Source: Granulosicoccus sp. (GTDB lineage: Bacteria > Pseudomonadota > Gammaproteobacteria > Granulosicoccales > Granulosicoccaceae). Taken from it: a stretch of 33,373 bases of DNA. The translations under genes and the position numbers were made by a program. Location of the stretch: the NCBI GenBank assembly GCA_023301795.1, contig JALZVU010000092.1, forward strand, positions 1-33,373. The letters run 5' to 3'. Position 1 is the first letter of the stretch; each line of letters begins with the position of its first letter. Shown here piece by piece: positions 15,262-23,754 of the stretch. Under the pieces are notes generated by a model. It made no database searches. It had not been told where the DNA came from and worked only from the letters and a program-made list of their open reading frames with translations.

Positions 15262-17055
15262 TTAGTCTAGACTGTATTGACTACCTGTAAAGATATCGCT
15301 GGTTAGCACTTTAATCTGTTGCAGCCAGGGGGCGCTGATGTTGCAAGGGCTGGAGGCAACATTCACTTCCATACACGCGGTAGTCGATTCATCCGTAGCT
15401 GATATGTGCATACCGTAGACGGGTCTGACAGTGACATTATCAGGATTGGAAGTCGCATCGAACATGGAGGGGTCCTCGTGTCCCAACAATGACATGACCA
15501 ATGATGGCAGTCGATATAAAGGCAGTTTGCCAAGCTGCAGGGGGCCGCGCTTGCCATCGATCACAATCAACGGTGTGCTGGTCAGTTGTTCAAGCTGTGC
15601 TCCGGAGAACTCCGAACGATCATCGGGCATATTCCACGCCTCAGTGTAGACACCGTAGTTGGGTCCGAGGAAAGGCAGATGATCTCCAAAGATGACAATC
15701 AGCGCATCAGGGTCGTCGCTTCGAAGGACTTCAAGGTGTTGCATGAGATCACGTGACTTGTACCAGACCTGATTTAGGTAGGCGTGCAGTAAGCCTGCGT
15801 CTTTGCCAGCAGCTACTTTGTCAGGGTAGTTGTCATTACTTGGGTAAGGAAGATGGCCGTGATATGTCAGCACATAATTAAATACTGGACCGGGAAGGTC
15901 AGATTTTTCGATGTGATCGGATATCTGTGAATACAGGCTGTGGTCCAGCAGTAGAGTGTCTACGGAGTCGGTAAGGTCGAAGTCTACCTTGCTAAGATAC
16001 TCTTCGAAACCGACGTACTGGTAGGCATTAGTCCGGTTCCAGAATCCTGGGACGTTAGGGTGTGAAGCCAGTGTGTGATAGCCCAAGTCACTGAGTTGTT
16101 TTGGCAGGCACGGGGCACTTTGCCGCAACCAGCCTTCGAAGAAAACAGCATTTGTGGTGACAGGAAATCCGCACAGCATTTCAAACTCGGCATTTGCGGT
16201 ATATCCGCCAAACACAGGTGATAGCGCAGTTGCATTTCCTGTTTGCTGCCATAAACGTCGAAAATCCTCAGGCAAGGGGTCTTGCGGTACCCAGTCGCTG
16301 CCCAGCGATAACGGATCAAAAAATGATTCCAGAACTAATATATGGACGTTCCTATCGGGCGCGATTTCAGTGTCGCTCATGACATCTTGCAGAGCGGTTT
16401 CCATGATCTTTGCGCTGTCAGCGGACAGAACTTGCTGCGCGGCTGCCACATCTGTGCGCATGGGGGCTTTTTCCACTTTGCTCATAGTGCGAATGGTTTC
16501 TTGAGCAAGATGCAAAGCCAGGCCACGGTCGCGAAAATTGGCTGGCTGATCCCAGACCGAGTTGCCAATAAGGCTGTCCAGAGCATTGCGTAGCGGCACG
16601 CTTTGCGCATTGACAGCGAACCCTGTGGCACCGAGAAAAATTAATGATAGCCAAACACTGGCCCGCTTCCAGGGTATGAATATGACAGCCAGAATCAGTG
16701 GAATACTGATGACGAAAAATAAAGCGATCTGGCGCCATCCGTCGGTTAGAAAAAACAGATTCTGGATATTGAAAAAATCATCAGGGCTAGCCGGTGTGCC
16801 CAGAATCGATATTTTGGCAGCATTGCACAATTGGAACATCACAATGATGACCGAGGAGAGAATCAAGGCCTTGTGTCGGGACTGGACGAGTAGCGCCACG
16901 ATAAGCGCTACCGCCAGATTGCCTAGAAAATCTCTGTACCAGAACTCAGAATCAAGGGTGACAGAGAACCCGTAAGCGATGATGCCTCTGCACACAAACG
17001 TGACGATGAGAATCGATAGTGTAAATAGGGCACTCTTCCTGAGTAGCAAAATCAT
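15262..17055 (-). CDS. LtaS/OpgB-like sulfatase-fold phosphotransferase, membrane-bound
   Basis: A 597-residue inner-membrane protein with about five N-terminal helices (residues 8-30, 43-60, 62-82, 110-128, 132-150) and a periplasmic alkaline-phosphatase/sulfatase-fold domain. The LtaS-type catalytic residues are recognisable: Glu243 in ILVLESFFDP, nucleophile Thr286 in VFGGYTANAEFEMLCGFP, and the metal-binding FGDHLPFLG. This family transfers phosphoglycerol or phosphoethanolamine from phospholipids to glycans. It lies 8 nt behind the glucan synthase gene with only a weak ribosome site, so translational coupling is likely. By analogy with OpgB, which decorates periplasmic glucan, its acceptor is probably the glucan made by its neighbour (inference). 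A true sulfatase is less likely because no Cys/Ser-x-Pro-x-Arg motif is seen. Confidence 0.82.
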   Translation of the reverse strand: MILLLRKSALFTLSILIVTFVCRGIIAYGFSVTLDSEFWYRDFLGNLAVALIVALLVQSRHKALILSSVIIVMFQLCNAAKISILGTPASPDDFFNIQNLFFLTDGWRQIALFFVISIPLILAVIFIPWKRASVWLSLIFLGATGFAVNAQSVPLRNALDSLIGNSVWDQPANFRDRGLALHLAQETIRTMSKVEKAPMRTDVAAAQQVLSADSAKIMETALQDVMSDTEIAPDRNVHILVLESFFDPLSLGSDWVPQDPLPEDFRRLWQQTGNATALSPVFGGYTANAEFEMLCGFPVTTNAVFFEGWLRQSAPCLPKQLSDLGYHTLASHPNVPGFWNRTNAYQYVGFEEYLSKVDFDLTDSVDTLLLDHSLYSQISDHIEKSDLPGPVFNYVLTYHGHLPYPSNDNYPDKVAAGKDAGLLHAYLNQVWYKSRDLMQHLEVLRSDDPDALIVIFGDHLPFLGPNYGVYTEAWNMPDDRSEFSGAQLEQLTSTPLIVIDGKRGPLQLGKLPLYRLPSLVMSLLGHEDPSMFDATSNPDNVTVRPVYGMHISATDESTTACMEVNVASSPCNISAPWLQQIKVLTSDIFTGSQYSLD

Positions 17056-17063
17056 GAGTTCTA

Positions 17064-19709
17064 TTACTGCTCGGCCTTAACAATAGTGTCCGTTAGATTA
17101 CCCAGCAGGCTCTGTTTACTCTTGCCGTTGAACAGGCGATTTGGAAGATCCTCGAAGGTACTTACTAGCGACAGAACAACTGCAGCAACATACGGTGTGC
17201 TCTGAACTACCAGCAATGCGATCCACAATCGAGTGTCAGCAAGGTAGGCGTCGTAACGCAGTGCAATGGCCGCAGCTGCAATCAATAAGCCTGCTGCAAT
17301 CAAAGCCTCTTCCCGAGCATCCATTAATGCTTGGCGCAAGGTATGAGCCTCACCCATTTTGGGTGTGCGGAAAAAACCGATACTGGTTGTGTGCAGCCCT
17401 GCGAGCATAGCGCGTGCAATGGTGTGAGACACCGCTAAACCTGCGATTCCAGCACCAATGCTTTGTGCAAAGCTGGCCTGCATGCGCCAGCGATACAGCA
17501 CCAGCATCTTTGACAGTTTAAAAACAAAGAAGCCAATAGGTAGCAAGCTGAGCATGATCTCAGGTGGATTGTACAGATGCGGGTACATCACCATCAGCAC
17601 CGAGTACATCAGCGCGATGCAGTTAAACATCAGGCATAAGCCATCAGCCATCCACGGCAACCAACCGGCGAGAAAATGATAACGCTGGCCTGAATTGAGC
17701 TTGGAGCGGTTGAGCCTTAGAAAATAGCGCATGTGATGACGCAGTATGAGTACTGAGCCGTAGGCCCAGCGAAAGCGCTGCTTTTTGTAGTCCAGAAAAT
17801 TATCTGGCATCAGGCCACGACCATACGATTTGGGAACGTACGAGGCCTTGTAGCCTTTCTCCAATATGCGTAGGCCCAGCTCTGCGTCTTCTGTGATGCA
17901 CCAGTCTGACCATCCGTCTACGTCGCTCAATATAGAGCGTCGGACGATGGTCATTGTGCCGTGCTGGATGATGGCATTCCGCGCATCACGATTTACCATA
18001 CCGATACCAAAAAAGCCGGCGTACTCTGAGTAAATCATGGACTTGAACAAGCTGTCGCCTGCGTCGCGGTAGTCCTGCGGTGCCTGCACGATGGCAATCT
18101 GTGGATCGGAAAACGCTGTGGTGCATTCGTTCAGCCATTCCGGGTCAACCACGTAGTCGCTGTCTATTACGGCGACAAGTTCGGCATCTTCAGCGGTGTG
18201 TTCCAGCGCATAGTTAAGCGCACCAGCTTTAAAGCCTGCGAGTGGATTGACATGATGGAAGTGGAATTGCCCGTCTTGTCGGGCGCACCATTGTTGCACT
18301 GGCATCCAGCAAGCCGCGTCAGCGGTGTTGTTATCAACGACGATAACTTCAAAATTCTGATAGTTGAGTGCCCTAAGAGCTGCCAGCGTCTCGATGACCA
18401 TGTCTGGAGGCTCATTGTAGGTAGGCACATGGATGGACACCTTGGGAGACAGCGTGTTTTTGTCAACAAGCTGCTTCTTGATATCGCGATGTCGTCGATT
18501 CCAGATCGCCTCGGCCCATTCGTGAGCTTCGGTGAGCAGGATAATGGTGATACAAAAGGCCGCCAATAAAAGACCGATGCCAACGACAACTTGTTCCCAT
18601 GTCATGTATTTCTGAGAGTAGTCGTAAACCATCCAGACCACAGCCGTTGAGATGGCGTAGGACACCAACACTAGAAAGCCTCGGCCACCGTGCACAAGGC
18701 CGCGGCTGTCGCGCAATAACATCGCCAGCATCAGCACTGCAAACGCCAGTGAGAAACCGGCAATGGCACGCCACTCTGGAATCGGTGTCACTGGTGCTGC
18801 AAACGGAAACTTGGGCTTGCGTTCAGCGTTGAAAATACCCCAATAACGACCTACTGCTCCTTCGTCAGTCTTCCAGATCTGATCAAACGCCTCTAGCACG
18901 AAATAGTTAGCATCGCTTGTGTTGGCCTGATCGAGAAACTGGCGCAGAAATGTTGCCTGGTTCTGCAACGAAGGCTGGGCGCCACCTCGCTTTCTACCTT
19001 CGCTGGGCCAACCAACCTCACCTAGGACAACGGTTTTGGTGGGGAACTCGCTTTGCAGCTGTTCATAGCGTTCAAACACATAGCTAGGTGCGCGCTTTGC
19101 TGGAACGCCTTCCCAGTAGGGCAGTACATGAGCGGTCACGAAGTCCACATGCTTGGCCAGAGACCGGTTTCTGAGCCAGTTGTCCCATGTCTCGGCAACA
19201 GTAACGGGTATTGATCCCACCATGGTTTTGACAATATCGACGTAATTGGCAAGCTGCTCACTCGTGATCTCGCCTCGCAGCAGAACCTCATTGCCAACAA
19301 CGACGCCAACAATGTTGCCGGGATTTGTGTCAACAATGGTGCGAAGTCGGCCGATTTCTTCCCAGTTGCGCTCGATATCGTCTGATATCCAGATGCCGAC
19401 CATGACATTCAAACCATGATCTGCGGCAAGTACCGGTATGTCGCCTAGCGTGCCCTCAACCGAGTAGGTGCGAACACGGTCTACTTTATCCGCTAGTAGT
19501 GCCAGATCTCGGCTTATTTGTTCTTCTGTAGGGAATTCGCTGGCATTTCGGGGGGACTGCCCGGCGCGAAATGGCGAGAACGCCACGCCTTTGATGGATT
19601 CGGGCCATTCAGGGACATAGTCTGGGCGATTAAAAATAGCCCCGGTGGTTATCAGCAATGTGCCAACCAGAGCGATAATAATCCACGATGCGCGGTCAAT
19701 TTTAAACAC
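17064..19709 (-). CDS. NdvB-like bimodular glucan synthase (GH17 + GT2)
   Basis: An 881-residue membrane protein with two enzyme domains. After an N-terminal helix (residues 9-26) comes a periplasmic GH17-type domain (about 37-305) that keeps both catalytic glutamates: Glu141 in VVGNEVLLR and Glu231 in LGEVGWPSEG. Three helices (about 313-333, 343-362, 372-393) lead to a cytosolic processive GT2 domain with VPTYNEP (428-434), VDNNT, AGFKAGALN, DSD (516-518), TED (606-608) and QRFRW (644-648). Several C-terminal helices follow. Proteobacterial NdvB-type proteins of this composition make beta-1,3-linked, often cyclic, periplasmic glucans, the GH17 part acting as a transglycosylase. The start is GTG at 19709 behind TATGGAAA. 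It is the first gene of a pair with the LtaS-like transferase gene. Confidence 0.85.
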   Translation of the reverse strand: MFKIDRASWIIIALVGTLLITTGAIFNRPDYVPEWPESIKGVAFSPFRAGQSPRNASEFPTEEQISRDLALLADKVDRVRTYSVEGTLGDIPVLAADHGLNVMVGIWISDDIERNWEEIGRLRTIVDTNPGNIVGVVVGNEVLLRGEITSEQLANYVDIVKTMVGSIPVTVAETWDNWLRNRSLAKHVDFVTAHVLPYWEGVPAKRAPSYVFERYEQLQSEFPTKTVVLGEVGWPSEGRKRGGAQPSLQNQATFLRQFLDQANTSDANYFVLEAFDQIWKTDEGAVGRYWGIFNAERKPKFPFAAPVTPIPEWRAIAGFSLAFAVLMLAMLLRDSRGLVHGGRGFLVLVSYAISTAVVWMVYDYSQKYMTWEQVVVGIGLLLAAFCITIILLTEAHEWAEAIWNRRHRDIKKQLVDKNTLSPKVSIHVPTYNEPPDMVIETLAALRALNYQNFEVIVVDNNTADAACWMPVQQWCARQDGQFHFHHVNPLAGFKAGALNYALEHTAEDAELVAVIDSDYVVDPEWLNECTTAFSDPQIAIVQAPQDYRDAGDSLFKSMIYSEYAGFFGIGMVNRDARNAIIQHGTMTIVRRSILSDVDGWSDWCITEDAELGLRILEKGYKASYVPKSYGRGLMPDNFLDYKKQRFRWAYGSVLILRHHMRYFLRLNRSKLNSGQRYHFLAGWLPWMADGLCLMFNCIALMYSVLMVMYPHLYNPPEIMLSLLPIGFFVFKLSKMLVLYRWRMQASFAQSIGAGIAGLAVSHTIARAMLAGLHTTSIGFFRTPKMGEAHTLRQALMDAREEALIAAGLLIAAAAIALRYDAYLADTRLWIALLVVQSTPYVAAVVLSLVSTFEDLPNRLFNGKSKQSLLGNLTDTIVKAEQ

Positions 19710-20288: not shown

Positions 20289-21002
20289 TTATCGGCGGCG
20301 CTTTTTTACAACGTGTTGACGGGGTTGGACATTTATCTCGCTGATAAGTGCATTGTCGGGAGAGCTGATTAGTTGCCACACGGCGTTGGCAACATCGCTC
20401 GCTTCCAATGCGTGAGCGCTCTCAGGTCCGGGTTCGAAGTCGAGTTTATCGAAAAACCCTGTACGCACACTTCCCGGGTTCACAATTCCGACATGGCAGT
20501 TGGCATTAGCAACCTCGTGAGTCAGTGATTGAGCAACGCCGCGAAGAGCGAATTTGGCAGCACTATAAAGTGAGCCGTATCGAGCGCCTTGCAAAGCGCT
20601 GGTGGAGCCAATGAAAACGATATTGCTGCGATCACGCTTTCGCATCGTTGGGATGCATTCCCTGACAACACTCAGCGGGCTGATCAGATTGAACACAATA
20701 CTGTGATGGATCTGCTGGGATGAAAAATTTTCCAGTGAGCCGATATCGCCGCGTCCCGCATTGCAGACAACGGTATCCAGTGCGTGTTGCTTCAGGATGT
20801 TGTGAACAAGATCTGTTGTTGCGGGTAGGTCAGTCAGATCGATTTGATAATGGGTTTCGTTGGCATGAGTGTGGTCCGGGGCTGTCCTTGATAACGAGAC
20901 GGTATTGATTTGGTGAGTGCCCAGCAAATCACAGCAGGCTCGTCCAATTCCCCGACTTGCGCCGGTGACCAACACACACTGAGGTTTGTGGGCTACGTGC
21001 AT
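20289..21002 (-). CDS. Short-chain dehydrogenase/reductase (SDR)
   Basis: A 237-residue classical SDR. The cofactor motif TGASRGIG is at residues 14-21, NAG (in CNAGRGDIG) near residue 82, the catalytic Ser in FIGSTSALQ, and the YxxxK motif in YSAAK. It ends with NPGSVRTGFFDKL, the usual active-site cap region, and a basic tail (KKRRR). The reading frame starts 10 bp inside the end of the radical SAM gene, so the two are translationally coupled. The substrate is not evident. Context suggests it processes a product or substrate of the nucleosidase/radical SAM pair, but many SDRs are placed next to unrelated genes. Confidence 0.88.
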   Translation of the reverse strand: MHVAHKPQCVLVTGASRGIGRACCDLLGTHQINTVSLSRTAPDHTHANETHYQIDLTDLPATTDLVHNILKQHALDTVVCNAGRGDIGSLENFSSQQIHHSIVFNLISPLSVVRECIPTMRKRDRSNIVFIGSTSALQGARYGSLYSAAKFALRGVAQSLTHEVANANCHVGIVNPGSVRTGFFDKLDFEPGPESAHALEASDVANAVWQLISSPDNALISEINVQPRQHVVKKRRR

Positions 21003-21976
21003 GGGAAAAACTGGTGATCGCCAATATGTTGCTGCAACCTTTGCATGCAGAAGTTGCGCATGGTCTCTTCAACGTCTTCAGGGTAGCTCATCATGCCGTC
21101 GCGAGCTGCTATGGGTGCGTTGAGTAGCTTGGCATCTGGATATAGGCGCACCAGTTTTTTATGGAAGGCTTTGGGTAATCTGAATACTCCAAGGCTGACT
21201 GAGTGCACGTCACTCATATTCAGGGTCGCAAACACTTGGTCAAACATGGCGCCATAGATTTCGTTAAAGTTATCAGCGTACAGCAGGGGGTCGAATCGCA
21301 GACCTATTTTCCAGCCCGCGTCTTGCAGTTTTTTCAAGGCCTCCAGTCGCTTGGATAGCGATGGTGTGCCGTGTTCCTCTGCGCTGACAATGGGTTCGGG
21401 TGAAAGACTGAAAGCAACCACTGCATTGTTAATGGCTGCGCGTTTAAGTAATGGGCGAATTTGCGTGCTTTTAGTGCGAAGTTCCAGATGTGCTTGTGGT
21501 TGTGAGTCAAAGAAGCTCAGGCATTCGTCGACAAAGCCTGTGATCGGATCCAGCGCTAGTGAGTCACAGTCGTATCCTGAGAAAAACCACACATCATCGT
21601 TGTGTTCGCGCACGGTACGATCCATGTCTGCAAAAAAATCTTCACTGTTAATGAAGACAACATAGTGTGCTGATTGGTACATGCCCTGAAGAAAGCAGTA
21701 ACGACAGTCGTACACGCAGTTCAGCATATGAGAAAAATAGTAATTGTTCTCCCCACCTATGTGATAACCGGGTGGGGTGGGTAGAACACGTTTTCCCGGC
21801 TTTTTGGCAAGGATTAGCGCAGGGCTGGCTTTTTGATGCTTGAAGTTTTGTGCTGGCGCGTTGAAGACATCACCATAGTGTTCAATGCTCACTATCCGGG
21901 CCTTGGGATAACGGCTGCGCAGGGTCAATGTGCGTGGGTGATTTGCAACGGCATCTTCTATGTAAAGTGTATCCAT
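20993..21976 (-). CDS. Spore photoproduct lyase-like radical SAM protein
   Basis: A 327-residue radical SAM protein of the SPL family. The cluster motif CVYDCRYC gives Cys87, Cys91 and Cys94. A fourth cysteine, Cys137 in FFSGYDCDSL, lies 50 residues after the first; in Bacillus SPL the H-donating Cys141 lies 51 residues after Cys90 in a similar context. Later segments (FSLSPEPIVSAEEHGTPSLSKRLEALKKLQDAGWKIGLRFDP) resemble SPL, as does the C-terminal FFP. True SPL splits the thymine dimer of spore DNA. Here there is no sign of a spore former, so the substrate is unknown: a DNA or nucleoside lesion is plausible. The gene lies 8 nt after the nucleosidase gene and overlaps the SDR gene by 10 bp. 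Confidence 0.85.
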   Translation of the reverse strand: MDTLYIEDAVANHPRTLTLRSRYPKARIVSIEHYGDVFNAPAQNFKHQKASPALILAKKPGKRVLPTPPGYHIGGENNYYFSHMLNCVYDCRYCFLQGMYQSAHYVVFINSEDFFADMDRTVREHNDDVWFFSGYDCDSLALDPITGFVDECLSFFDSQPQAHLELRTKSTQIRPLLKRAAINNAVVAFSLSPEPIVSAEEHGTPSLSKRLEALKKLQDAGWKIGLRFDPLLYADNFNEIYGAMFDQVFATLNMSDVHSVSLGVFRLPKAFHKKLVRLYPDAKLLNAPIAARDGMMSYPEDVEETMRNFCMQRLQQHIGDHQFFPCT

Positions 21977-21984
21977 ACTATGCG

Positions 21985-22800
21985 CTACTCATAAATAACA
22001 GGGTGAGCTGCGATGCTTGATTGCAGTGTTTTTCTGATGTGTGCAGAGCTTTTTCCCTGAGTATCAAGCCGGGGTATTTCACCAGCCTTGACAATATGCT
22101 GATGAATCAGTTTTCTGAGTATCCGCTCATCATTAACCGTATGGTGAATTTGTTGGAGCAGGTTGCTGATTAAAACGTCACCTTCCACTGAGACCGCATT
22201 GTGTTCCTCATTAAAGTTATGGTGCAATACGTCAAGTATGGAGTTGATGTCAGGCATTGCATTTTCGATGAGGGCGATGACGGTGCGCTTGTTTATTGTC
22301 TCGATGCCGTGCTCAGGATTATCTGAGACCACTTTGATGCAATGTATCTGGCTTGTTGAAAGATGTCGGCTGGCAGCTGTGAATATTCCGGCAGCTTCCA
22401 TGTCGAACAATTCTCCCTGACGATAATGCGTATCAGGTGCATCGATTGTGGTGATGTTCTGTGAAGGCAGGCTGCGAAACGTGTTGTTATCGGGCAGGTG
22501 TGGATACCACCGTGCGCCGCTTGCGTGATCACGAACCTGATGCGCCAATACACTCTGACCGATGGGTTGGCAGCCACCTGCAATACCGACGTTAAGTATT
22601 GCTGCAATATCCGGGTACGCTTGCAACATAGCGCCGGTGCCAGCCGCCGCATTCATTTTGCCAGGACCACACTCTAGTAAAAGAAACCGTTCTGATGCGT
22701 ACACCCGCAAATGTCGTGCATTACTTTGCTGGAGGCTCAGTGCATCAAGTAGTGGCCGTGTCTCCGCTGGCAGTGCGGTGATGATACACAGACGTTTCAT
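21985..22800 (-). CDS. Nucleosidase / nucleoside phosphorylase family protein (MTAN-like)
   Basis: A 271-residue protein of the PNP/UDP phosphorylase-I superfamily. It begins IITALPAETRPLLDAL, with the conserved Glu; LNVGIAGG is the phosphate/ribose-site glycine loop; FDMEAAGIF carries the ribose-binding Met-Glu; and VVSDN supplies the catalytic Asp of MTA/SAH nucleosidases. The last ~80 residues form a helical tail beyond the catalytic core (starting near NFNEEHN) that ordinary MTAN lacks. The substrate is unclear: 5-deoxyadenosine, MTA/SAH or a modified nucleoside are all possible. It is first in an operon with a radical SAM gene, which could use it to clear 5-deoxyadenosine (inference). 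Confidence 0.8.
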   Translation of the reverse strand: MKRLCIITALPAETRPLLDALSLQQSNARHLRVYASERFLLLECGPGKMNAAAGTGAMLQAYPDIAAILNVGIAGGCQPIGQSVLAHQVRDHASGARWYPHLPDNNTFRSLPSQNITTIDAPDTHYRQGELFDMEAAGIFTAASRHLSTSQIHCIKVVSDNPEHGIETINKRTVIALIENAMPDINSILDVLHHNFNEEHNAVSVEGDVLISNLLQQIHHTVNDERILRKLIHQHIVKAGEIPRLDTQGKSSAHIRKTLQSSIAAHPVIYE

Positions 22801-22907: not shown

Positions 22908-23243
22908 ATGCTGGTATCCAATCTGGAGTTTCTTCCCGGCCGCAAGGTTGTCCGACATCTTGGGCTGGTGCAAGGGAGCTCGGTACGTTCTAAGCACGTC
23001 GGACGCGATATAGCGGCATCGTTCAAGAATTTTTTTGGCGGTGAGCTGCGCGGTTACACCGAGCTACTCTCCGACTCGCGAGAAGAGGCGACCAGCAGAA
23101 TGCTGGAACAGGCGACCAGCCTTGGTGCTAATGCGGTGCTTAACGTGCGATACAGTACGTCCAGCATTGCTGCAGGCGCTGCCGAGATTTTTGTATACGG
23201 TACGGCTGTGGAACTTGCCGAGGATGTGGTGACTGATGTTTAG
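22908..23243 (+). CDS. YbjQ-family (UPF0145) protein, soluble
   Basis: A 111-residue protein of the YbjQ/UPF0145 family, sometimes named a heavy-metal-binding domain although the biochemical role is unproven. Conserved features are GRKVVRHLGLVQGSSVRSKHVGRDI, FFGGELRGYTELLSDSREEATSRML and the C-terminal GANAVLNVRYSTSS with YGTAVEL. There are no membrane segments. Members form ring-shaped oligomers. It overlaps the next gene by 8 bp, and three genes form one translationally coupled operon: soluble YbjQ, membrane-anchored YbjQ, M48 protease. Confidence 0.88.
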   Translation: MLVSNLEFLPGRKVVRHLGLVQGSSVRSKHVGRDIAASFKNFFGGELRGYTELLSDSREEATSRMLEQATSLGANAVLNVRYSTSSIAAGAAEIFVYGTAVELAEDVVTDV

Positions 23244-23754
23244 CCTTGTCATTCAGGCAGGCATTGTTGTCTCATTGCTTGTTCTGGGCTACCTGTTTGG
23301 TTCATTCGCTGAAAGACGCCATTATAAAAAAATCCGTGAGAGAGAAGCCAAAGGCACCGGATTGCCGGTTATTGCTAGCCGTTACCCTCCACAGGATCAA
23401 CGCTATCATCAGCATCTTGTGACAGGCAGTACGGTGGTTGCGTCAGATTATTTCAAAAATTTTCTGGCAGGGCTTGTCAATATTTTTGGCGGGCGCGTTA
23501 CCCCGTTTGAATCCTTGCTGGACAGAGCACGGCGAGAGGCTGTATTGCGTATGAAAGATCGGGCCCGGGAGCTTGGGGCTGCCTACGTGTTTAACATCAA
23601 GTTCGATACCACTCGCATCGCTACAGGGCGTCTTGCCGCAATGGAAGTGCTGGCCTATGGCACGGCGATGGTGCCTATGGATAAGGCGCTTGGATTGCGC
23701 AGTGCCTTGTCAGATGATGACGTACTTCAGCCTGGGCCCGTCCATGCAGTATGA
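23236..23754 (+). CDS. YbjQ-family protein with N-terminal membrane anchor
   Basis: A 172-residue paralogue of the preceding protein. An N-terminal transmembrane helix (residues 4-24, LVIQAGIVVSLLVLGYLFGSF) and a basic RRHYKKIREREAK juxtamembrane segment place the YbjQ domain (about residues 57-150) in the cytoplasm. The domain keeps VTGSTVVASDYFKNFLAG, FGGRVTPFESLLDRARREAVLRM, GAAYVFNIKFDTTRI and YGTAMV. A short acidic tail follows. It overlaps both neighbours (8 bp upstream, 11 bp downstream). The pair suggests a mixed oligomer tethered to the membrane (inference). Confidence 0.86.
   Translation: MFSLVIQAGIVVSLLVLGYLFGSFAERRHYKKIREREAKGTGLPVIASRYPPQDQRYHQHLVTGSTVVASDYFKNFLAGLVNIFGGRVTPFESLLDRARREAVLRMKDRARELGAAYVFNIKFDTTRIATGRLAAMEVLAYGTAMVPMDKALGLRSALSDDDVLQPGPVHAV

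Follow-up and report, generated by a model that had tools for sequence, protein, structure and literature searches.

In the futalosine pathway, the radical S-adenosylmethionine (SAM) enzyme MqnE adds a 5'-deoxyadenosyl group, after which the nucleosidase MqnB acts. In hopanoid synthesis, HpnH adds its radical, the putative phosphorylase HpnG removes adenine, and a sugar can be added later, the enzyme that forms bacteriohopanetetrol not being established; a conserved cysteine of HpnH reduces its radical intermediate, according to the title of a paper cited in the same source (excerpt of PMC12583986). Spore photoproduct lyase (SPL) is proposed to return a hydrogen atom and regenerate SAM via a Cys-Tyr pair, and its mutants C141A and Y99F consume SAM and release 5'-deoxyadenosine; the Bacillus subtilis enzyme carries the cysteines C91, C95, and C98 together with C141 (excerpt of PMC3742179). 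Here we analyze a 33,373-nucleotide (nt) stretch of DNA from Granulosicoccus sp. (GenBank assembly GCA_023301795.1, contig JALZVU010000092.1, positions 1 to 33,373; hereafter, the window), in which genes for a nucleosidase (NUC), an SPL-fold radical SAM protein, and a short-chain dehydrogenase/reductase (SDR) lie side by side on the minus strand.

The larger result is an uncharacterized module of four co-inherited enzymes, for which we offer a testable hypothesis of adenosylation. Tentatively, and jointly with the pathway set out below, we regard the trio as three quarters of a biosynthetic module composed of the SPL-fold radical SAM protein, the nucleosidase, the SDR (or an aldo/keto reductase [AKR]), and a glycosyltransferase of family GT2. 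The four families co-occur in many bacteria that do not form spores, their genes form operons, two of them are fused in one lineage, catalytic residues are intact in nearly all copies examined, and the hydrogen-relay pair of SPL is absent.

Co-inheritance of four enzyme families

The three open reading frames had been listed in a preliminary description drawn from the sequence and were verified as given, including a gap of 8 nt between the NUC and radical SAM genes and an overlap between the radical SAM and SDR genes:

21985-22800, minus strand: NUC, a nucleosidase of the MTAN/futalosine-hydrolase fold, 271 amino acids (aa), with a C-terminal helical extension of about 70 aa (PF01048, 29 bits against a cut-off of 25.1; model with a predicted local distance difference test score [pLDDT] of 92.8; fold match)
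20993-21976, minus strand: SPL-fold radical SAM enzyme, 327 aa, subtype 1 (short) (PF20903, 86.1 bits; model pLDDT 91.1; match to SPL structure 4fhc, Z 33.6)
20289-21002, minus strand: SDR, 237 aa, overlapping the radical SAM gene by 10 nt (PF00106, 122 bits)

Co-occurrence was assessed in 369 gammaproteobacterial genomes, with presence called at E ≤ 1e-5 for the radical SAM protein, over 140 bits for NUC, and E ≤ 1e-50 for both GT2 and SDR; absence denotes no match at these thresholds, in a loose first look that scores the top candidates of each genome and includes some incomplete genomes. The radical SAM protein was found in 64 genomes, GT2 in 59, NUC in 58, and SDR in 43, and in the 305 genomes without the radical SAM protein, NUC, GT2, and SDR never reached threshold. 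Every one of the 64, which span 33 families, carries at least one partner. Where a genome has both NUC and GT2, the two are adjacent in 43 of 54 cases, NUC and the radical SAM gene lie within 600 nt of each other in 42 of 58, and the radical SAM and SDR genes are adjacent in 34 of 43, all counted irrespective of orientation. NUC matches below 50 bits (19 of the 369 genomes) were set aside; most resemble other PF01048 members, and one, in genome G098, is a degenerate NUC fragment.

Gene order was likewise conserved. NUC lies upstream and SDR downstream of the radical SAM gene at 26 of 43 loci in the genome_contigs collection (NUC only at 8, SDR only at 8, and neither at 1) and at 22 of 29 loci from relatives (5, 1, and 1, respectively). 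Loci L044 and L045 both represent the gene of the window itself, and a number of genome_contigs loci seem to stem from the same genomes as the G loci; because loci are duplicated across collections in this way, residue conservation is given below as counts of distinct sequences. The proposal that the trio forms a unit was to be abandoned if it failed to recur in related genomes, and its recurrence in this order bears the proposal out. Eight genomes were searched because their radical SAM locus showed no NUC; all eight have one, that of L012 being split by a contig break beside the radical SAM gene, and in five of them NUC lies beside a GT2 glycosyltransferase gene or fragment.

In the window's genome (313 contigs, 5.78 Mb), whose nearest named relatives are Granulosicoccus and Granulosicoccaceae metagenome-assembled genomes (MAGs), the GT2 gene is located on a separate contig (C221). 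Among other members of the genus, 25 of 26 genomes carry the radical SAM protein, as do 18 of 21 further genomes of the family. It also occurs, at 41-46% identity, in records titled uncultured Alphaproteobacteria (AG- isolates), most of which have the NUC and SDR genes arranged as in the window. In a phylum sample of 229 genomes, which says little on breadth, GT2 reached E ≤ 1e-50 in two, the window's own and G580 (180 bits), and a search of the viral_contigs collection with query A1 gave 0 verified relatives. Contig L020, assigned to a chlamydial MAG (Waddliaceae), carries the trio, with a radical SAM protein of 53% identity, and is possibly misbinned. Among titles and abstract openings of the open-licence literature, nothing described the four-enzyme module.

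Three types of the radical SAM protein were distinguished, the 64 genomes comprising 49 with the full short type, 10 with the long type, 3 with a third type, and 2 (G323 and G418) whose typing rests on contig-edge fragments. Type 1, the short form of the window, is paired with NUCs bearing the C-terminal extension. Type 2, of about 410-480 aa with an extra N-terminal domain, is seen in 10 genomes and, judging by a fragment, in an eleventh, and all 11 have a short NUC; GT2 and NUC are adjacent in 10 of them and NUC and SDR in 8, the radical SAM gene adjoins NUC in none, and in G287 it is found immediately beyond the SDR gene, in opposite orientation. In type 3, represented by G130, G257, and G359 of one family, NUC and GT2 are fused into a single protein of 493-500 aa (L170:4778-6262, L171:4728-6209, and L172:2564-4066), with the radical SAM gene elsewhere, beside an AKR gene. 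The whole fusion proteins score 22-23 bits with PF01048, and the isolated N-terminal part of that from G130 scores 25.5 bits against the cut-off of 25.1. A 501-aa open frame in G348 was considered as a further GT2-NUC fusion and rejected, as a stop separates the two frames.

GT2, which mostly adjoins NUC, is a well-conserved family (mean column identity of 58% over 14 sequences), and Asn105, Ser133, Tyr146, and Lys150 of the SDR are invariant in 20 of 20 aligned rows. No SDR of the module family was found in the fusion genomes G130, G257, and G359, where the AKR (PF00248 verified in 2 of 3) takes its place beside the radical SAM gene. Because an AKR replaces the SDR in this lineage, the exchange suggests, rather than proves, that the step is a carbonyl reduction.

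The radical SAM protein and the nucleosidase

Four sites of the radical SAM protein bear on its relation to SPL:

21695-21718, minus strand: CxxxCxxC cluster motif, codons 87-94 (invariant in 67 of 67 distinct sequences)
21692-21694, minus strand: codon of Phe95, at the place of the SPL radical-relay Tyr98 (alignments; Phe in 64 of 67, Tyr in 3 of 67)
21557-21577, minus strand: codons 134-140, GYDCDSL (Tyr135 opposite the SPL hydrogen donor Cys140; Cys137 kept in 66 of 67)
20999-21001, minus strand: codon of Cys326 (the other two types have the Cys of YLCM/YFCM at the aligned position; kept as Cys in 60 of 67)

The initial assignment to SPL-like radical SAM proteins held. The score with the SPL profile PF20903 is well above its cut-off of 27 bits, and the AlphaFold2 model matches SPL over the whole chain (root-mean-square deviation [rmsd] 2.3, 311 aligned residues), other radical SAM enzymes in the structure-match list reaching Z 15.0 or lower. 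The SPL equivalog profile TIGR04070 failed, with 96.1 bits against a cut-off of 400.

Cys87, Cys91, Cys94, and Cys137 lie where they had first been placed, and their conservation among the 67 distinct homologues is far beyond chance. Cys137 had been equated with the hydrogen donor of SPL on the strength of its distance from the first cluster cysteine, which was put at 51 residues for Bacillus SPL; from C91 to C141 it is 50 (excerpt of PMC3742179). The equal spacing is misleading, because a profile alignment to SPL of G. thermodenitrificans sets Tyr135, not Cys137, opposite the donor C140, with Cys137 opposite a Ser two residues further, and a single-sequence alignment agrees. The site of the relay tyrosine (Tyr98 in G. 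thermodenitrificans, Tyr99 in B. subtilis) is occupied by Phe95, and position 137 is Ser or Gly in the two sister types with the same partner genes (9 and 3 sequences). By alignment, then, the hydrogen-donor Cys and the relay Tyr of SPL are both replaced in the window protein. Because this SAM-regenerating pair is gone, the enzyme should use SAM up, and the 5'-deoxyadenosyl group would be expected either to remain in the product or to leave as free 5'-deoxyadenosine.

Cys137 probably matters within subtype 1, since it is kept in all but one of the distinct sequences, and it could lie near SAM, two residues on in the same loop as the SPL donor site. For a role common to the three types, Cys326 would be the better candidate, because the other two types have an aligned Cys and subtype 1 mostly keeps it. 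The supposed agreement of the C-terminal FFP with SPL did not survive, as the SPL alignment stops at profile position 296 of 330, and P325 is found in 47 of 74 rows.

For NUC, the corresponding sites are as follows:

22762-22764, minus strand: codon of Glu13, aligned with the MTAN Glu (alignment)
22396-22401, minus strand: codons of Met134-Glu135, the ME motif (alignment, conservation)
22321-22326, minus strand: codons of Ser159-Asp160, the SD motif (alignment, conservation)
21988-22203, minus strand: C-terminal extension, about residues 200-271 (profile match ranges)

NUC passes the PF01048 profile, and its model shows the MTAN fold over residues 1-198 (Z 23.8, rmsd 2.4, 193 aligned). Glu13, whose counterpart in MTAN presumably has a catalytic role, is present with Glu135 and Asp160 in 55 of 55 distinct NUC sequences, and fold and residues together place NUC in the PF01048 superfamily. 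Across the types compared, the Glu/Glu/Asp set of MTAN is kept in 80 of 81 distinct sequences, the exception being that of G098. Taken together, the fold and these residues point to an adenine nucleoside as substrate. By alignment, NUC is about 38 residues shorter than MTAN over the matched stretch, and its residues 171-271 gave no Pfam match above cut-off. Because the window genome already encodes a canonical MTAN (255 bits, cut-off 169), an MTI phosphorylase, and an AMP nucleosidase, NUC looks like an additional enzyme dedicated to the module.

In one genus (G098 and, by eye, G348), the nucleosidase part of NUC has lost its catalytic residues and the C-terminal extension is kept, with the gene between those of GT2 and the radical SAM protein (L169:4396-5058 and L168:3300-4905); this form is possibly a pseudo-enzyme with a structural role. 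The extension is present in 47 genomes and absent in 11, those with the long radical SAM type, such that it and the N-terminal domain of that type are mutually exclusive. Homology between the two is only suggestive and is not claimed here. Of 150 column shuffles, 1 and 0 attained the hhalign scores of 14.0 and 14.4, respectively, and hidden Markov model (HMM) matches rank the other family above background (rank-test p of 1e-16 and 1e-4, from sequences that are not independent); the hhalign probability was about 1%, match positions were scattered over NUC, and no match in the HMM searches between extension and domain was significant on its own.

Candidate pathway and alternatives

A four-enzyme adenosylation pathway is, in our tentative judgment, the best explanation of these observations. 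We infer that the radical SAM enzyme would make a 5'-deoxyadenosyl radical and add it to a widely available unsaturated acceptor X, giving an adenosyl-X adduct, from which the dedicated NUC would remove adenine to leave a 5-deoxyribosyl-X aldehyde or hemiacetal. The SDR (the AKR in one lineage) would then reduce the freed sugar, and GT2 would glycosylate the resulting hydroxyl, with these two steps in either order. With somewhat more reserve, we propose that the SPL-fold enzyme adenosylates a common metabolite and, together with NUC, a carbonyl reductase, and GT2, yields a new class of glycosylated ribityl or ribosyl conjugate in Gammaproteobacteria and some Alphaproteobacteria.

We favor the adduct route because the link of NUC with GT2 is no weaker than its link with the radical SAM protein. 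The acceptor is probably a widely available metabolite, as no fifth gene is constant, and it should be something other than a hopanoid, because HpnH and hopene cyclase are mostly missing from module genomes: HpnH is above cut-off in 7 of the 64 and hopene cyclase in 9, and neither is above cut-off in the window genome (G000 in the cyclase search). Hopanoids were accordingly ruled out as the general product, with 57 of 64 genomes lacking HpnH and 55 lacking hopene cyclase above cut-off. At E ≤ 0.001, the TIGR03470 search matches 56 of 64 module genomes and 14 of 14 control genomes, such loose matches being widespread because other radical SAM proteins are picked up.

Several points weigh against adenosylation. 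No acceptor was identified, and no fifth gene recurs constantly among the module loci. In the genus of G098 and G348, a gene for NUC without catalytic residues is kept, and NUC activity may be dispensable there. Of the 64 radical SAM genomes, 5 gave no GT2 (G106, G113, G252, G303, and G355) and 21 no member of the SDR family. NUC falls below the cut-offs for HpnG (16.4 versus 187.1 bits) and futalosine hydrolase (44.1 versus 124.7 bits). SPL itself abstracts hydrogen without adding its radical, and we know of no adenosyl-adding enzyme of the SPL fold. Finally, exact-test p-values for the co-occurrence overstate the case, because the genomes are related.

Nearly as likely as adenosylation, if on balance doubtful, is that the radical SAM enzyme abstracts hydrogen from a small molecule, in a rearrangement, lyase, or oxidation reaction, and that SDR and GT2 act on this molecule as well, with NUC clearing the by-product 5'-deoxyadenosine and relieving product inhibition. 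5'-Deoxyadenosine is an MTAN-type substrate, and the proximity of NUC to the radical SAM gene in 42 of 58 genomes would suit such a role. Replacement of Tyr98 and Cys140 would likewise lead to SAM being consumed and 5'-deoxyadenosine being released, as in the C141A and Y99F mutants of SPL (excerpt of PMC3742179). Loss of the catalytic residues in one genus would also be easier if another MTAN substitutes. Against this alternative, a canonical MTAN is already encoded in the window genome. Moreover, in the 11 long-type genomes NUC is never beside the radical SAM gene but is beside GT2 in 10, and it is fused to GT2 in one family. With this adjacency and fusion, a pathway intermediate fits as the substrate of NUC better than a by-product does, and adenosylation remains our preferred reading.

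Salvage or remodeling of a modified nucleoside or base is improbable. Its model would be queuine salvage, in which a nucleoside hydrolase works alongside QueL, a queuine lyase of the radical SAM class that is presumably SPL-like; the same two enzyme classes are adjacent in the module. However, the fold of NUC is that of MTAN and not the inosine-uridine hydrolase type of QueK, and GT2 and SDR are not known to take part in that pathway.

More improbable still is an SPL-like reaction that repairs a DNA lesion caused by UV light or oxidation. The preliminary description had proposed a substrate unrelated to spores, such as a DNA lesion; the first part is probably right, but a lesion fits poorly because the module contains a GT2 glycosyltransferase, whose gene lay outside the sequence on which that description was based. 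The SPL fold and a PF20903 score above cut-off would agree with repair, but the donor Cys and relay Tyr are not conserved, the equivalog score falls far short of its cut-off, and an MTAN-fold nucleosidase, an SDR, and a GT2 are none of them typical partners for DNA repair. Nor was a repair gene recognized in the neighbor clusters common to many loci, most neighbors being without annotation. That the genes are chance neighbors without a common function can be dismissed in view of their shared order at most loci of both collections, the presence of NUC in all eight genomes whose radical SAM locus showed none, and the nested co-occurrence over 369 genomes.

Surroundings of the trio and relation to known systems

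Within the window, no Rfam match above the gathering score and no tRNA gene were found, and promoter and terminator scans did no better than on shuffled sequence. Upstream of the trio, positions 22908-23754 hold two adjacent YbjQ-family (PF01906) genes, followed by an M48-type peptidase-like reading frame (by eye) and a NudC-like NUDIX gene; several Granulosicoccaceae loci (L001-L005 and L016) have comparable genes upstream of the trio. On the other side, a single protein at 17064-19709 joins a GH17 glycosidase-like domain to a GT2-type glycosyltransferase domain and adjoins a sulfatase-family protein at 15262-17055, the pair looking like surface or periplasmic glucan genes. A methyltransferase-like neighbor (cluster 17) recurs in 5 of 43 loci from two distant groups (L023:7386-8225, L024:7249-8226, L029:3571-4380, L041:3409-4209, and L042:3403-4206). 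Its product has, by eye, a signal-peptide-like start, and the gene lies directly upstream of NUC in L029, L041, and L042; the L041 protein gave no NCBIfam match.

Family libraries label these radical SAM proteins only as spore photoproduct lyase (family) proteins. Co-inheritance, operon structure, and a fusion of two partners now link the family to an apparent pathway for a small molecule or glycoconjugate, in roughly one-sixth of the gammaproteobacterial genomes sampled (64 of 369) and in some Alphaproteobacteria. If adenosylation is correct, the module would make an undiscovered metabolite, its four families would acquire testable functions, and calling PF20903 proteins DNA repair enzymes would call for caution.

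Compared with SPL/SplB (TIGR04070, PF20903), the window protein shares the whole-chain fold (Z 33.6), the CxxxCxxC motif, and a PF20903 score above cut-off. It differs in having Tyr135 for the donor Cys140 and Phe95 for the relay Tyr98 of the G. thermodenitrificans enzyme, in reaching 96 of 400 bits with TIGR04070, and in its co-inheritance with NUC, GT2, and SDR. NUC resembles MTAN in fold and in its Glu/Glu/Asp residues but scores 34.2 of 169 bits with NF004079, is shorter in the matched stretch, and carries the C-terminal extension; a true MTAN is encoded elsewhere in the window genome.

The futalosine enzymes MqnE and MqnB similarly combine a radical SAM protein with a subsequent nucleosidase of NUC's fold (4bmz, Z 22.9), and TIGR03664 is the best NCBIfam match of NUC, although at 44.1 of 124.7 bits, and for the radical SAM protein, SPL is a closer structural match than MqnE (Z 33.6 versus 13.8). 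With hopanoid synthesis, as far as an excerpt of PMC12583986 describes it, the proposed pathway shares the order of enzyme classes, namely, radical SAM adenosylation, adenine removal, further conversion, and sugar addition; the module differs in the SPL fold of its radical SAM protein and in the score of NUC for HpnG (TIGR03468; 16.4 of 187.1 bits). Should adenosylation prove correct, the module would stand beside HpnH/HpnG and MqnE/MqnB as a further case of radical SAM adenosylation followed by removal of adenine.

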